Of a DNA stretch of 64,000 nucleotides, positions 8,019 through 15,794 are shown piece by piece (within the stretch, counting starts at the first letter, position 1; each line of letters begins with the position of its first letter). The notes beneath the pieces are model-generated. The model ran no database searches, was not told the DNA's origin, and worked only from the letters and a program-made list of their open reading frames with translations. Source of the stretch: Chlorobium sp. (lineage in GTDB: Bacteria > Bacteroidota > Chlorobiia > Chlorobiales > Chlorobiaceae); the NCBI GenBank assembly GCA_005843825.1, contig SZXX01000015.1, positions 1-64,000 of the forward strand, read 5' to 3'. The position numbers and the translations under genes are program-made.

Positions 8019-9746
8019 TTAAATCAGAGTCTCTGCCGCCTCATGCTGTAGTGACCACATCCGTTTGTAGAGTCCGTCTTTTTCCATCAGCTCATGGTGC
8101 CGGCCCTCTTCTGTTATGGCTCCTTTGTCGAGTACAAGGATGTTGTCATATTGCTCCATTGCTTTCAACCGGTGTGTGATGGTAATGAGGGTTTTGCCGG
8201 TGGAAATGGTCTTAAGGGTTTCAGTCACCTCTTTTTCAGTCACTCCGTCAAGGTTTGCCGTCGCTTCATCAAGTATTATTATTGGAGCGTTTTGCAGCAG
8301 AATACGCGCAATGGCTATTCTCTGCCTCTCACCTCCACTGAGTTTCATGCCGTGCTGGCCGGTCCAGTCATCAAGTTTTGAGGTAAAGTGGGCAAGGCCG
8401 GCCGCAGAAAGCGCTTTTTTAAGTTCATCATCCGACCCGCCAGGTTTAGCAAGTATCAGGTTTTCCCGGATTGTCTCTGCGAAAAGGTATGTTCGCTGCG
8501 AGACCAGTGAAATATTGCGCCGCAGCTCTTCCGGGTCAAAAAGGTTGATGTTGTGACCACCGAGCGTAATCTGCCCCTTTGAACAGTTCCAGAACCGCAT
8601 AAAGAGGGCTGTTAACGTTGATTTCCCGGCCCCGCTCGGTCCGACAAGGGCAACGTGTTGGCCGGTATGTATGGAAAAAGATATGCTGTCAAGTGTTTTC
8701 GAGCTGCTTTCAGGATACCTGAAACTGAGATTTTCTACGCTGATGTCATGGTTCGACGGCAAAGGCAGTGGGGTGGCAGGTGCCACTGTTTCCGGCTTTG
8801 CATCAAGTATTTCAAAAAGGCGTTCCCCGGCATGTTTGTCTGCTTCGAGGTGCTTGACGGTGGCTGGCAGAGGAAGAAATGGTTCAAACGATGCTATGAC
8901 GGCCAGCGTTATGACTGCCAGTGAAATTCCGTTTACACCTCCGGTTGAAACGGTTGGTATAAGTGCCCATAAAATGGATATGACAGCCGCGTTCATAAGA
9001 AGCCCGGTGAGTGAATCGTGCATCCCCTCTATCAATGCATTTTTTCTCTGGAGCTCAAGTTTGCTTTTTTCTGCAGAGCGCATATGTTCGAGGTGTTCCG
9101 GAAGTTTTCCGTACACCTGGAGTTCACCGATTCCCTGAAAGAGATCGAGGGCAAGAACCTGCTGAACGGTTTTATGCTTCATGATTCCTACCTGTATCCC
9201 CCGGCTTAACAGAGTGCTGAAGAGAGGTACTCCAATGCCTGCAAGAATATGGAAAAGGAGGATGAGGAGTGCAGCCTCTATTGAGTATACTCCGAGCAGA
9301 AACCACATCAAAGCACTCACAAGTATAGCTGTCAGTGGCGGTGCGAGAACTCTTGTGTATATATTTTCAAGGCTTTGAATGTCATCGACAATACGCTGCA
9401 GCAGGTCACCGCTTTTGAAGTGCATGAGGCGTGCTGGTGCAAGTGGTTCGATGGCGTCATAAAACCATAAGCGCAGTTTTGTCAGAATCTTGAAAGTGAT
9501 GTTATGGGATATCAGACGTTCAATATACCGTAACACTCCCCGGGCCAGGCCGAAAACTCTTACGCCCGCAATGCTGAGCTCCAGGGCTGCCATAGGCGGC
9601 TGTGAAGCCGCTTTCGCGATGATATAGGCTGAAGTCATCAGAAGTCCAATACCGCTTCCTGTTGTGGCAAATCCGATGATAGCCGCAAGCGCCATCCACC
9701 AGAAATATGGCTTGACGAGTGACGTTAATCTGAAAAATATTCTCAT
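8019..9746 (-). CDS. cydC: thiol reductant ABC exporter subunit CydC-like
   Basis: ABC TM + NBD (GPSGAGKST, LSGGERQRIAIARI); located directly after cydD-like gene; start placed at MRIFFRLTSLVKPYFWW (9746), track ORF starts at 9824. Confidence 0.8.
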   Translation of the reverse strand: MRIFFRLTSLVKPYFWWMALAAIIGFATTGSGIGLLMTSAYIIAKAASQPPMAALELSIAGVRVFGLARGVLRYIERLISHNITFKILTKLRLWFYDAIEPLAPARLMHFKSGDLLQRIVDDIQSLENIYTRVLAPPLTAILVSALMWFLLGVYSIEAALLILLFHILAGIGVPLFSTLLSRGIQVGIMKHKTVQQVLALDLFQGIGELQVYGKLPEHLEHMRSAEKSKLELQRKNALIEGMHDSLTGLLMNAAVISILWALIPTVSTGGVNGISLAVITLAVIASFEPFLPLPATVKHLEADKHAGERLFEILDAKPETVAPATPLPLPSNHDISVENLSFRYPESSSKTLDSISFSIHTGQHVALVGPSGAGKSTLTALFMRFWNCSKGQITLGGHNINLFDPEELRRNISLVSQRTYLFAETIRENLILAKPGGSDDELKKALSAAGLAHFTSKLDDWTGQHGMKLSGGERQRIAIARILLQNAPIIILDEATANLDGVTEKEVTETLKTISTGKTLITITHRLKAMEQYDNILVLDKGAITEEGRHHELMEKDGLYKRMWSLQHEAAETLI

Positions 9747-11482
9747 AGCTCGCTCTCCTGTTGCAGCAGTAAGGCATCGTGATAGAAGCCCCCTGCAGTG
9801 AAGAGTTCGTCGTGTGTCCCACATTGGGTGATTTTCCCCTGACTGAAAACCACTATCTGGTCTGCTGACCTTATTGTTTCAAGCCGGTGAGCAATAATGA
9901 CGGTCGTTCTTCCTTTCATCAGTTCTTCCATGGAGTTTCGAAGCGCAGCTTCCAGCTCAGGGTCGGTATGAGATGTAGGCTCATCGAGTATCAGAAGCGG
10001 AGCGTTTTTAAGAAATGCCCTGGCTAGAGCTACCCTTTGCGCTTCTCCACCGCTTAATCTCGACCCTTGTTCACCTATCATTGTGTCCAGTCCGTCTGGA
10101 AGCGAATTGACAAACGAAGCAAGTCCGGTTTTTCTAAGTGCGGCATTCATTTCCACTTCCGATGCATCCGGACGTGCCAGAAGAATATTTTCTTTCAGGC
10201 TGGCGTTGAAAAGGTAAGGGTGCTGTGGAACCCACGATATCTGGCGGTGCCACTGCTCAAGAGGAATAGCATGAATTGGAGAGTTGTTAATTGTAATGCT
10301 GCCCGCGCCTGGTTCCAGAAAGCGCAAAAGCAGGTTGATCATTGTGCTTTTTCCAGAACCGCTTGGTCCTATTATTGCTGTGGTCTTGCTTTCGGGGATG
10401 ATAAAGTTAATGCCATCAATCGCTGGCAGGCTTGCATCTGGATAAGTGAAGGAGAGATTGCTGCAGAGAATAGGGTACGTTCCGGCACTATCCTGCTTAA
10501 TCAATCCGTTTTTATTCTCGCCTGCCCCGGAGCTCTGGTCCAGGATGGCAAAAATCTCTTTTGAAGCACTGACGCCTTCCATGCCGGCATGAAATTTTGT
10601 GCCGAGCTGACGCAAAGGAAGATAAAAGTCCGGTGTAAGCACTAACACGAAGAGGGCATGTTGAAAGGTTAGCTTGCCATCCATCATACGTAGTCCAATG
10701 CCGACAGCAACGATCGCAATCCCGATAGTCCCCACAAGTTCAAGGGTGAGCGAAGAGAGAAAGGCGATTTTCAGCACCCTCATGGTTGCGTGACGGAATG
10801 TCTCCCCTGTTTTTTCAATAGAATCTCGCTGTGATCTGCTTTGTGCAAAGAGTTTCAGAGTCGGGAGTCCCTGCAGCACATCAAGGAAGTAACCGCTCAT
10901 TCTGCTCATGGTTTTCCACTGTTTTTCAGTCATTGCACTTGCCGATTTTCCGATCACTATCATGAAAAAAGGAATAAGTGGCGCTGAGGCAAGCAGAATC
11001 CAGCCGGAAATCGGATCAGCGGGAAAGATGGTACAGACAATCAGGAGAGGGGTAAAAAGCGCAAAAAAGATCTGGGGGATATACTGGCTGTAATATGCAT
11101 CGAGGGCTTCAACGCCCTTAAGCAGTGTTGTGCTGAGACGTCCGCTTTGCACCGAACGGGTGTAGATCGGTCCGAGAGCACCTACCCTCTCTATAAGTCT
11201 GCTGAATATTTTTTCACGGATTGCAATTGTTCCCCGGTTGGCTTCACTGTGGGATGCCCAGTTGAAAGCCATGCGAAGCAGGCTGAAAAACGCAAAAAAG
11301 CTAAGCAGAGGCAGAAGCTTTTCTAACCCGATTTTTTGTATGAAAGCGCTGTCAATGATTTTGCTGAGATAAAAGGCCTGAGCGATCAGCAACCCCGATG
11401 CAATAACTCCTGAAATCAGAGATATAATAAATGGCGCTCGCTCTTCTTTAAGAAGTTGAAAAAGGCGCCTGTCGATGTTCAT
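9743..11482 (-). CDS. cydD: thiol reductant ABC exporter subunit CydD-like
   Basis: ABC TM + NBD (GPSGSGKST, LSGGEAQRVALARAFL); paired with cydC. Confidence 0.8.
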   Translation of the reverse strand: MNIDRRLFQLLKEERAPFIISLISGVIASGLLIAQAFYLSKIIDSAFIQKIGLEKLLPLLSFFAFFSLLRMAFNWASHSEANRGTIAIREKIFSRLIERVGALGPIYTRSVQSGRLSTTLLKGVEALDAYYSQYIPQIFFALFTPLLIVCTIFPADPISGWILLASAPLIPFFMIVIGKSASAMTEKQWKTMSRMSGYFLDVLQGLPTLKLFAQSRSQRDSIEKTGETFRHATMRVLKIAFLSSLTLELVGTIGIAIVAVGIGLRMMDGKLTFQHALFVLVLTPDFYLPLRQLGTKFHAGMEGVSASKEIFAILDQSSGAGENKNGLIKQDSAGTYPILCSNLSFTYPDASLPAIDGINFIIPESKTTAIIGPSGSGKSTMINLLLRFLEPGAGSITINNSPIHAIPLEQWHRQISWVPQHPYLFNASLKENILLARPDASEVEMNAALRKTGLASFVNSLPDGLDTMIGEQGSRLSGGEAQRVALARAFLKNAPLLILDEPTSHTDPELEAALRNSMEELMKGRTTVIIAHRLETIRSADQIVVFSQGKITQCGTHDELFTAGGFYHDALLLQQESEL

Positions 11483-11711
11483 AGTTCATGTATGGTTACT
11501 TCCGTATTCAATCCGCTCACTCCGGAATAAAGAATAAAACCGGGAGCAGAGGCAGCTGCAAATGTATTGCGTAAGACGCAGGTGTTACAGTTTCAGTAAA
11601 AATAACACGGTTGTCTTAAAATAGGTTTAAAATAGTCCGTTTAATTGTCAAACCAAAATAGTAAACGTTCTGCATGGAATGAACTGAAAGGTTTGAGCTG
11701 TGGCTCAATGT

Positions 11712-11750
11712 AAAAAAAAGACCAGACTTTGTTGAGCCGGTCATTTTTTA
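11712..11750. terminator. rho-independent, probably bidirectional terminator
   Basis: A-tract / GACC...GGTC stem / T-tract downstream of the DUF2442 gene. Confidence 0.55.
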
Positions 11751-11785
11751 TTGTCTTGCTGGACTTGCTTAGTGGGAGAAATGAG

Positions 11786-12055
11786 TTAAGGTTTCGCATT
11801 GCTTACAAGCGGAAAAGCATCAGGGTTACGAATTGATTCAATTGAAAGATCAATATCTAATAATGGCCAATACAAGTGCTCTGAGTGATGGAGTTCTACA
11901 TTGCAGATTTTGCTAACGGTAGCCTCTTTGAACCAGGGAAACTCAGTGTATTGTAAAAATAGCTCTTCTTCTCCAATCAAAAGCCAAAAGCCATAAGTGG
12001 AAATATTTGTTACTTCAACAAGGGAAGTGCTGGATCCATGCGTTGTGTATGTCAT
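11786..12055 (-). CDS. DUF2442-like protein
   Basis: SLVEVTNISTYGFWLLIGEEELFLQYTEFPWFKEATVSKICNVE..HHSEHLYWPLLDIDLSIESIRNPDAFPL fits the DUF2442 pattern. Confidence 0.7.
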   Translation of the reverse strand: MTYTTHGSSTSLVEVTNISTYGFWLLIGEEELFLQYTEFPWFKEATVSKICNVELHHSEHLYWPLLDIDLSIESIRNPDAFPLVSNAKP

Positions 12056-12131
12056 TGTTGTGCTCAGTAATGAGGTAAAGCGCTTCAGTTATTTCATACT
12101 GAGAAAGTCCTGTTGTAATCGGAATATAGTT
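12015..12131 (-). pseudogene. C-terminal remnant of a DUF4160-like gene
   Basis: Frame NYIPITTGLSQYEITEALYLITEHNNDIHNAWIQHFPC* with an in-frame stop (TAA, 12132-12134) just upstream and no usable start; overlaps the DUF2442 start as intact DUF4160-DUF2442 pairs commonly do. Confidence 0.55.
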
Positions 12132-12163
12132 TTAACAATCCTTTGTCGTTATTTGAAAAAAAG

Positions 12164-12889
12164 TCAGGGGTGTTTCCGGAAAATCTCTCTTTCAATAATT
12201 TCTTTCACGAATGCTGGTATTTCTTTTTCGAGTGAGTGAGCCTTTGTCTTTAGTTGTTCATAAATGTCTGTTTCATCGCCTTGCCAGACAAGATCCAGAC
12301 GTCTGATCTGACGCATGGCAATATGAGTGTAACTGTCCGGGTATGCCCAATAGCATGTCAGACAAATTTTCCTGTCTTTGATGTTGTTCCAATTCTCACA
12401 ATGCTCACAAGACCACGATTTCGCCCGGTTTGCAGAGCCGGAAAGCAACATGAAGTCTTCAGAGTTATATTCAGTGCCGTCACCACCGACTTCATAAGGA
12501 ACGCGATGATCAATTTGCAATTCTCGCTCGTCTATTTCTTCAAGATAAATGAAGCACTTGCAACCATATCTTTCAGTCAGGGCATCCTTGATTTTCTTTG
12601 ATAGTCCTGTTCTGCCTGATAGTTTTGTAAATTGTTTGCTCTGTACATCGCCGAAACGATATGCTGCTATTTTACGTCCATCAGAACCGTTAACTCGGAA
12701 TGTTGTGATAGAAATGCCATGTTCACGAACATCTCGTACTGCCCTTGGCGGATGGTTGTACCCGTAAGTTACTTTCAACTCCTCTGTTGTTATAAAGCCA
12801 TGTTTAAGAATATGGTCAATAACGGTTTTGGGTCGTTTGGCAGTAATGGAGTGGCATAGATCAATAAAATCTTTTGGGAGTTCAGGCAT
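12164..12889 (-). CDS. HNH-type (probable type II) restriction endonuclease
   Basis: ELQIDHRVPYEVGGDG...NSEDFMLLSGSANRAKSWSCEHCENW...CLTCYWAYP: HNH core with Cys pairs; overlaps the adjacent DNA adenine methylase. Start MPELPKDFIDLC at 12889; track ORF extends to 13126 in an overlapping frame. Confidence 0.8.
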   Translation of the reverse strand: MPELPKDFIDLCHSITAKRPKTVIDHILKHGFITTEELKVTYGYNHPPRAVRDVREHGISITTFRVNGSDGRKIAAYRFGDVQSKQFTKLSGRTGLSKKIKDALTERYGCKCFIYLEEIDERELQIDHRVPYEVGGDGTEYNSEDFMLLSGSANRAKSWSCEHCENWNNIKDRKICLTCYWAYPDSYTHIAMRQIRRLDLVWQGDETDIYEQLKTKAHSLEKEIPAFVKEIIEREIFRKHP

Positions 12890-13808
12890 ATTCGGTATGA
12901 GGTTCGAGCAAGGAGTACTGCTGCATTTTTGGTTGATGGTAATCAGCCGGTATGTGGTTGAGCTTTGCTGATAATGAGGGCGAAAGGTATAAGGATTCGT
13001 AGGTAACCTCATCGCGCCCCAGTAACGTTGCCTGACTCGAACGCCCTGCATCCAGTTCAACACGAGTGAGTTCAAGGGATTCAGGAAGTAACATTCCAAA
13101 GGTTTTTTCTCCTCTGCGACCGTCATAGCTAACGATATATGAAATTTCCCGTCTATTTAGCTCGGCAAGGGCAATGACAAATTCCTCATGGTCAATGCCG
13201 GAAAAATAACGGGAATCTCGATCTCCGCATACTCCCTGATAGGGCGGGTCCATATAAACAAGATCGTTTTTTTTAGCTTTTACCAATACCTCTCTGAAAT
13301 CCACTGAGGAGAATTCTGTTTTGTTGTTAAGTAAAGTAGAAACACCGTAAATATTTGAGCGCATTGTTTGAGGTAGGGTTCCATGACGTCTCTTGTCAGG
13401 ACTTTGATTGAACATCCCGTCAGCATTGTATCGAACCGAACCTTTGACGCATCTTGCCAATACATAAAGGAAAAGACGCGGGTCTTGTGTACTGTTGAAC
13501 TCTGCACGAGTTCTGTAGTAATGCTCTATGGAGTCACCATGCTGCTCATTCCATAACTTCTCATAAAATGATGCAGTATCAATGGGAAACTGAACAATTA
13601 AGCGCAATAACTCGGCTAAAGGTCTGTTTAGATCATTGATGAGATAGGTTTTTGCCATCTGACGAGCTGCAGCGGCAATAGTGATTGCGGCAGAGCCTGC
13701 AAATGGCTCAATCAAGCAGTCAACATTTTTGGGGATATAGCGCAAAATAACGTGAGCCAAGTTGCGCTTGCTCCCTTGATATTGAATTGGATGAGGAATG
13801 CTTGCCAT
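12882..13808 (-). CDS. D12-class N6-adenine DNA methyltransferase
   Basis: IPHPIQYQGSKRNLAHVILRYIP, EPFAGSAAITIAAA, LVYMDPPYQG (DPPY), YIVSYDGRRGEK. Confidence 0.92.
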   Translation of the reverse strand: MASIPHPIQYQGSKRNLAHVILRYIPKNVDCLIEPFAGSAAITIAAAARQMAKTYLINDLNRPLAELLRLIVQFPIDTASFYEKLWNEQHGDSIEHYYRTRAEFNSTQDPRLFLYVLARCVKGSVRYNADGMFNQSPDKRRHGTLPQTMRSNIYGVSTLLNNKTEFSSVDFREVLVKAKKNDLVYMDPPYQGVCGDRDSRYFSGIDHEEFVIALAELNRREISYIVSYDGRRGEKTFGMLLPESLELTRVELDAGRSSQATLLGRDEVTYESLYLSPSLSAKLNHIPADYHQPKMQQYSLLEPHTEYA

Positions 13809-13854
13809 TATCGTTTTTGTAAATATTCGTGAGTGTCGATGGTCTTAAGAATGT

Positions 13855-13923
13855 TTAGTGTTCTATAATCAGGTGAATGGTATCCAAATGTCCCTCAGCT
13901 GTAGCTGTCCAGTGGACTTTCAT
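13855..13923 (-). pseudogene. N-terminal fragment of a ParE/RelE-type toxin gene
   Basis: ATG at 13923 overlaps the antitoxin stop as ATGA; reads MKVHWTATAEGHLDTIHLIIEH*, a ParE-like N-terminus that stops after 22 codons. Confidence 0.65.
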
Positions 13924-14135
13924 TCCGATAAACCGTATTTAGCGCGGACTTCCTGCACATCCTTGGTTCGGCCTGCATTGCTGTCCGCCAAGCCACGTTC
14001 AATTGCTTCGCGGATGTATATCTCACGCATCAGGTTCTCCCATGTAGCTTGCTGATGCATAAGGTCAATGAGGTTATGCACTTTGTCCCTTTTTATTACT
14101 TTTGACTTCACGCAACAGATCTTTGTTTTCTTCAA
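13920..14135 (-). CDS. antitoxin-family protein (partner of ParE/RelE-type toxin)
   Basis: ATWENLMREIYIREAIERGLADSNAGRTKDVQEVRAKYGLSE fits small antitoxins upstream of RelE/ParE toxins; N-terminal boundary uncertain. Confidence 0.6.
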   Translation of the reverse strand: MKKTKICCVKSKVIKRDKVHNLIDLMHQQATWENLMREIYIREAIERGLADSNAGRTKDVQEVRAKYGLSE

Positions 14136-14198: not shown

Positions 14199-14945
14199 TT
14201 AGGATGCTTGTCTCAGCGAAGGACATAACTGATCTGCGATTCGCTCCCATAGACTGATATAACCTTCGAAAATATCACCCCAATGGTGTTCATCCGATTG
14301 AAGGTGTTTGAGTCGAGAGTTTGATTCGATAGACGATACCATTAATTTTCCTGGTGAAAATCCAGTAGGAAGTGGGGCATTCTTTGGGAAATTCAGCAAA
14401 CGATTAACAGCAGACTTGAATTGCAGCTTTGCTGCGTCTGAGTTGTGAGCAACCCTGTTTCTTAAGACAATAGCAAGATCAAGATATTCAACGTCCAGTG
14501 GTGAAATTAATTGGAAAACATTCCCTTTTCCGAAGTGAATTTCAGACGTTGCTTGAACCCAGTGAAAGTTACCCCATCGCATCCTCCTCTCTGCATCACG
14601 CTTGTTTCTTTCTCCGGCAGCGAGCAGAAGAGCGTGAGTCTTGTTTTGCGCTTTGCCATAGCGTAGTTTTGGTAGGTATCCGCTTTCGGTTGGATAGCCG
14701 CTTAAGTATCCAAGGTAAATATTAGATATGAAATCCTCCCATGCTGATACAGCAGATAGGAATGCGAGGCCTACCACCTTTGCTGCTACGTTGGGTTGAT
14801 AAGATGTATTCTCAAATGAGTTATAGTCATAAATGCTCATCTCACGAGCAGGGTAATAGATCCGGCTCGCAGTTGTCAGCGAAGAGATGAAGTCGGCTTT
14901 GGTTCGGATCTGAGTGCTTGTCCCTCGGATCATATGATGATACAA
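14199..14945 (-). CDS. HEPN-like domain protein, function unknown
   Basis: AFLSAVSAWEDFISNIY helix and RNRVAHNSDAAKLQF (R-X4-H HEPN RNase-like motif). Confidence 0.5.
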   Translation of the reverse strand: MYHHMIRGTSTQIRTKADFISSLTTASRIYYPAREMSIYDYNSFENTSYQPNVAAKVVGLAFLSAVSAWEDFISNIYLGYLSGYPTESGYLPKLRYGKAQNKTHALLLAAGERNKRDAERRMRWGNFHWVQATSEIHFGKGNVFQLISPLDVEYLDLAIVLRNRVAHNSDAAKLQFKSAVNRLLNFPKNAPLPTGFSPGKLMVSSIESNSRLKHLQSDEHHWGDIFEGYISLWERIADQLCPSLRQAS

Positions 14946-15119: not shown

Positions 15120-15794
15120 TCACCACCCCTTCACCATAAACCACACCCCCGTCGCGATCATAATAATACTTGCTATTCGGTAAAATCGTTTCCTCATTTT
15201 GTTGCTGATAGTATTCACTACCTTTCCCACAAGAATGAGCGCAGGGGAAGTTCCTATGCCGAAGAGCATCATCATTATGGCGCCTTGAATCATTCCGGCA
15301 AAGGGATACTTGCTCTCCATGCCACCCCTTGCGGCGGCAAGCAGGGCTGTAAAGGTAAGGCCACAAGGAAGAAAACCGAGAACGACTCCCATAGGGTAAT
15401 AGGAACCAATGGATCGAGGTACCTTGAAGAGCGCCATAATCTTTTGCATGACTGAGCTGCCGGGGTTGCAGCTATTTTTTTGAGGGAGAGGCAACCACTC
15501 TGCTGTAGAAAGTCCCATGAGGATTATTGAGAGTCCCGCTATGATCATAATGGCATGCTGGAGTTGCTCGATAGAGGCTGTAAGGACAAGAAATGATCCC
15601 GAGAGTCCTGCTGCTCCACCCAGGATTGTATATGTGGTTACTCGTCCCAGATTGTAAAGCAGGTGGTGAAGTAATCCTTTTCTCGTTTCACCAAAGGTGA
15701 GTGTTGCAACAACCGGGCCGCACATGCCGATGCAGTGGCCGAAACCCCCGGCTAATCCAGCGAGGAGCATGGCGAGAAAGGGTGCGCTGTTCAT
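15120..15794 (-). CDS. sulfite exporter TauE/SafE-like membrane protein of cbb3 oxidase clusters
   Basis: AGLAGGFGHCIGMCGPVVATLTFG, VVLGFLPCGLTFTALLAAA; directly follows ccoS. Confidence 0.85.
   Translation of the reverse strand: MNSAPFLAMLLAGLAGGFGHCIGMCGPVVATLTFGETRKGLLHHLLYNLGRVTTYTILGGAAGLSGSFLVLTASIEQLQHAIMIIAGLSIILMGLSTAEWLPLPQKNSCNPGSSVMQKIMALFKVPRSIGSYYPMGVVLGFLPCGLTFTALLAAARGGMESKYPFAGMIQGAIMMMLFGIGTSPALILVGKVVNTISNKMRKRFYRIASIIMIATGVWFMVKGW

Follow-up and report, generated by a model that had tools for sequence, protein, structure and literature searches.

We favor a model in which the interval between tauE and cydD is a hotspot, genus-wide, for the integration and decay of toxin–antitoxin (TA) and restriction–modification (R-M) systems, with a D12 methyltransferase/nuclease cassette as one mobile resident and with deletions that spare antitoxins; we consider this the probable history of the locus. 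The window (the whole stretch of 64,000 nucleotides analysed) comes from a 2.55 Mb assembly, in 57 contigs, of a Chlorobiaceae-type genome, and the nearest relatives of its R-M genes carry Chlorobiaceae names. Every island feature in the window lies on the minus strand. Reading from 15.8 kb down to 9.7 kb, one meets in turn tauE, a gene for a 244-aa HEPN-like protein, an antitoxin gene, a ParE relic, the D12 methyltransferase, the nuclease, a DUF4160 relic, DUF2442, a terminator and cydD. The left border, tauE (sulfite exporter/TauE-like; 15120–15794), also borders the island in many relatives within the genus, and the right border, a cydD-like ABC transporter gene (9743–11482), flanks the interval in relatives. 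Ahead of cydD the island ends in an intrinsic terminator (11711–11743; RNA fold −11.6 kcal/mol, z −3.8), which is kept in G016, G034 and G005. Between tauE and the antitoxin, the 244-aa protein (14199–14933) bears a weak resemblance to HEPN_RiboL-PSP (Pfam E 0.01, below the cut-off); it is absent from close relatives, has only two weak matches (27–30%) in 87 Chlorobiaceae genomes and looks like lineage-specific cargo.

The two genes that adjoin the R-M pair are truncated toxin genes, as the initial annotation had proposed, and relatives carry intact homologues of both. On the tauE side, the antitoxin frame of the ParE module (RelB/ParD-like; 13920–14111) ends at 13920 and overlaps, through ATGA, a 22-codon frame (MKVHWTATAEGHLDTIHLIIEH, then a stop; 13923–13855), just where these had been placed. 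In relatives the corresponding antitoxin precedes an intact toxin of 94 aa, which hits the ParE_toxin profile (PF05016, E 3e-17). Codons 1–17 of the short frame (13873–13923) share 82% amino acid identity with this intact ParE (G019, G023, G213, G006 and G112); the homology ends at codon 17, position 13873, and no origin could be detected for the last five codons (LIIEH). Measured against the full-length domain of ~90 aa, the frame is a relic of ParE and not a ParE. The accompanying antitoxin had been called intact, but its codon 1 is AAG (14108–14106) where relatives carry ATG, the sole start option is an in-frame GTG just before it (a possible start at 14111), and its 5′ context is foreign compared with that of relatives. 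It is 74% identical to intact antitoxins, and its dN/dS against five relatives is 0.23–0.48, whereas two other copies compared with each other give 0.085. This orphaned antitoxin thus appears, from its sequence, to be decaying itself.

On the cydD side, a startless frame that ends at 12015 overlaps a complete DUF2442 gene (11786–12055; PF10387, E 1e-14), again as first described. In relatives DUF2442 is preceded by an intact 79-aa homologue that matches PF13711 (E 4e-15). The window's homology to it begins at 12116, codon 47, and the remaining 33 codons (47–79; 12015–12116) are 76% identical at the amino acid level to the intact DUF4160 of G005, G023, G213, G012 and G112, with the DUF4160–DUF2442 overlap geometry preserved. 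With a dN/dS of 0.11–0.23, DUF2442 is under purifying selection. When the 22- and 38-codon fragments were run alone through the profile search that had been suggested for them, neither gave a Pfam match even at E 10; their assignment to ParE and DUF4160 stands on the intact homologues in relatives rather than on profile matches of their own, and by this comparison they are, we judge, genuine relics, beyond chance. DUF4160 and DUF2442 were shown to form a toxin–antitoxin pair in Dickeya (DhiTA, PMC8198452), and a Thermus plasmid that lacked only its DUF2442 gene gave no transformants, which supports the same assignment (PMC12724237). Since this is a known TA pair, both broken genes in the window are toxins (ParE and a DhiT-type toxin) and both kept genes are antitoxins. 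The window shares with the Dickeya and Thermus systems the domain pair, the order of toxin before antitoxin and the gene overlap, but unlike them it keeps only the antitoxin and the 33 toxin codons. Beyond DUF2442, alignment with the closest relative, G016, reveals a 527-bp deletion at an ATTTC microhomology; the junction (CTCATTTC, 11778–11785) was placed by alignment with G016 and G034, and in G016 the bases missing from the window contain a zeta relic and what remains of another DUF4160/DUF2442 module. This deletion, the sole resolved junction, is unrelated to the R-M genes.

The content of the tauE–cydD interval differs in each genome mapped, as expected of a defence island or integration hotspot. 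We mapped ten TA genes (five pairs) in the interval across 15 genomes and 19 island stretches, most relatives being fragmented assemblies. Antitoxins were complete in 43 cases and broken in 12, whereas toxins were complete in 18 and broken in 27 (Fisher p 1.7e-4, uncorrected for shared descent and tandem copies); the module counts are not independent, and the long zeta toxin accounts for 16 of the 27 broken toxins. With pairing by adjacency, read from the mapping table, each of the 18 complete toxins stands next to its complete antitoxin, while 24 of the 43 complete antitoxins lack a complete toxin; for one further antitoxin the toxin is cut by a contig end. Toxin loss with the antitoxin kept, previously suggested to be tolerated, is therefore the rule here, and the asymmetry is what addiction predicts. 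Outside the 15-genome set, an almost complete ParE in G029 (C24; L169:1–430) stands beside an antitoxin reduced to its last few codons, near a contig edge, the only such case.

Orphan antitoxins are known from other bacteria (a Klebsiella survey, PMC7192599), and the present locus resembles them in that antitoxins are kept without a functional toxin; it differs in that, for five families within a single island, relics of the toxins and a part of the deletion junctions can still be read. Defence islands in which R-M and TA systems cluster have likewise been reviewed (PMC3874152), and in this locus, as in those, R-M and several families of TA genes share one site on the chromosome, with a patchy distribution across strains and with rearrangements. 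It is distinct as a single Chlorobiaceae hotspot where decay can be seen at many stages at once, and the literature searched yielded no description of a tauE–cydD hotspot in Chlorobiaceae. Two further observations concern the island in relatives. tauE and parts of the copper ATPase gene recur within it in G023, G014, G019 and G213 (L224, L227, L229 and L231), which suggests tandem amplification of the island border. Zeta toxins are often reduced to ~60 codons: in G005, G019 and G023 an internal deletion has fused the N-terminal region with the P-loop to a short tail (..VSILKDF and a stop) (L058:6924–7109, L228:5179–5352), and similar 58-codon zeta relics occur in G112, G213 and G324.

The R-M pair itself combines a methyltransferase of known class with an adjacent restriction endonuclease, as in Type II systems. 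The D12-class N6-adenine methyltransferase (12882–13808; PF02086, E 2e-35; TIGR00571; PADLOC MTase_II, E 8e-72) overlaps by 8 nt the nuclease that ends at 12164 (12164–12889), in agreement with the original coordinates. The latter had been described as an HNH nuclease: an HNH-like motif is present and the protein matches a PADLOC Type II endonuclease model (REase_II PDLC03566, E 5e-57), but in Pfam it matches the HTH_39 winged helix (PF14090) instead of an HNH family. A search for solved structures gave none for the nuclease. With its Dam-family (TIGR00571) methyltransferase overlapping a small endonuclease gene and its mobile, patchy occurrence, the pair resembles Dam/DpnII-like Type II systems, from which it departs in an endonuclease that joins HTH_39 to an HNH-like motif and has no solved relative. 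A dN/dS of ~0.1 for both genes, against four or five relatives, shows purifying selection on a functional-looking pair.

The proposal that these genes form a mobile unit of ~1.7 kb is upheld by their unrelated placements and by the limits of the shared sequence, which extends from at most ~20 bp before the methyltransferase ATG to ~20 bp after the nuclease stop. Related pairs occur in Methylobacter (78% amino acid identity), Thiothrix (68%) and other Chlorobiaceae, and the pairing of methyltransferase and nuclease is conserved in the first two. The cassette lies in the tauE–cydD interval in G023, upstream of cydD in G014 and elsewhere in G091. In Thiothrix it follows a ribosomal L27-like gene (read from the translation), and in Methylobacter it sits between intact ubiJ and ubiB, a second genome of the genus also having it after ubiJ. 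Because ubiJ and ubiB are both intact, arrival of the cassette need not truncate its neighbours, although the Methylobacter intergenic region is too variable for an empty-site comparison to give exact ends. Direct repeats common to the cassette ends in all contexts were not found, the pair AAACAACGATA/AAATAACGACA in G027 being absent from the others. Two D12 R-M copies, in G279 and G366 (L072 and L079), have a nuclease cut at an identical point, ~39 aa remaining; the RhuM-like and VapBC-like genes that come next are the same in both, despite differing upstream contexts.

The initial annotation had read the two truncations as the result of a single R-M entry that replaced the DNA between two tandem TA modules, removing the 3′ portion of parE along with the 5′ portion of the DUF4160 gene. 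Of the two histories that are possible, we favor this one less and consider it unlikely. Both genes are indeed truncated on the side that faces the R-M genes, Chlorobiaceae copies of the cassette often have truncated neighbours elsewhere, in at least two further contexts, lying beside a zeta relic (G279, G014, G006 and G023), a methylase C-terminus (G014, G006 and G023) or a 5′-truncated frame before a CopG-like antitoxin (G027 and G091), and R-M movement is known to accompany rearrangements (PMC3874152). Yet relics like those in the window are found where this R-M system is not adjacent. In G134, G012, G010, G018 and the third G019 copy, ParE is cut after the same codon as in the window, through a 207-bp in-frame deletion between ATCCACG repeats that leaves 25 codons. 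The same short fragments in relatives without the R-M genes had been named in advance as evidence against replacement, and for the toxin they exist (ParE cut after codon 16/17), though with a different tail. We rejected the idea that the window's relic is this 25-codon mini-ORF: its first 51 nt are 90% identical to the expected deletion product, but its last 27 nt are 30% identical, which is chance level. Loss of the 5′ part of DUF4160, with DUF2442 kept and away from this R-M system, is likewise common, with cuts at codon 50 (G339), 61 (G134), 69 (G016) and 56–57 (G014, G019, G029, G032 and G003).

Gene order and the junctions also weigh against replacement. In G005, G023, G112 and G213, and as relic forms in G134, the DUF4160–DUF2442 module lies upstream of antitoxin–ParE, opposite to the window, and none of the 87 Chlorobiaceae genomes showed an empty site in which parE and DUF4160 were both intact. 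The near base-resolution breakpoints that had been expected did not emerge, as each R-M junction holds a filler of ~25–45 nt whose source could not be traced. For the stretch that separates the ParE relic from the 5′ leader of the R-M genes (13829–13872), no convincing match was found in the fetched loci or the 87 genomes, the best, 34 bp long and 85% identical, lying next to an unrelated G015 gene and being judged a chance match; on the other side (12117–12163), comparison with other cassette copies identifies the cassette's 3′ edge (AAATAACGACA, common to G027) followed by short filler. The window's exact ParE and DUF4160 breakpoints are private to it. In G023 the D12 cassette follows an antitoxin–ParE module, 3.6 kb farther downstream and with the same orientation and order, so a simple deletion could yield something like the window's left junction. 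Since relatives show that erosion is general to the hotspot, R-M arrival is not necessarily its cause.

A second alternative, which we consider very unlikely, is that the antitoxin, together with the short start of the toxin, has been retained as a functional leader, the antitoxin promoter or translation through the mini-ORF driving and regulating the R-M operon. The conserved Chlorobiaceae cassette starts at most ~20 bp from the methyltransferase ATG, and TA genes or their remnants precede methylase genes repeatedly: an antitoxin with the 25-codon ParE relic directly before hsdM in G134, G012 and G010, antitoxin–ParE before another (N4/N6) methylase in G019, G213, G006 and G112, and, in G279, a zeta antitoxin with ~21 zeta codons that run in frame into the methyltransferase. 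Two Methylobacter copies, by comparison, have a promoter-like site just upstream, TTGTCA-16-TACAAT, which ends ~7 nt before the ATG (L078:5961–6001, L268); its position suggests a leaderless mRNA, and it is not conserved in Chlorobiaceae copies. No promoter consensus was found upstream of the window's methyltransferase, a region with fewer sites than its shuffles. The 25-codon relic (first 17 and last 8 codons) recurs in five diverged copies (L108, L111, L112, L123 and L229:8482–8559) with hsdM-type sequence after it, and the constant length hints at a possible leader-ORF role. However, the window's antitoxin, deprived of its ATG and of its former upstream region, evolves faster, a decay that argues against a leader or regulator role there, and in G366, G027 and G091 no intact antitoxin of like orientation immediately precedes the R-M genes. 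It is very doubtful that the R-M cassettes of these islands lack a promoter of their own and persist where they land downstream of an antitoxin, its toxin trimmed to a short leader and the antitoxin itself regulating the R-M operon. If this were true, a TA remnant would have been recycled as an R-M control element, for three R-M types and two TA families.

Returning to the hotspot model, we envision that type II TA modules and R-M systems integrate into the tauE–cydD interval throughout the genus and that deletions at short direct repeats or microhomology reshape the island. Deletions that break a toxin but spare its antitoxin would survive, whereas loss of an antitoxin beside a live toxin would be lethal or costly. 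The window would then represent an end state: ParE codons 1–17 and DUF4160/DhiT codons 47–79 are left as relics, each next to its kept antitoxin, and a selected R-M pair separates the two. We infer the order of these events, and also that the truncations need not stem from the arrival of the R-M genes.

With these corrections the original observation largely holds. The locus belongs to a known kind, of which it is a rich example: defence hotspots where toxins die first. It offers a dense natural series of TA module death, with five families in one island, the toxin lost first and some of the deletion junctions readable to a few bases, and it carries a warning that broken genes beside a mobile cassette are no proof that the cassette broke them.
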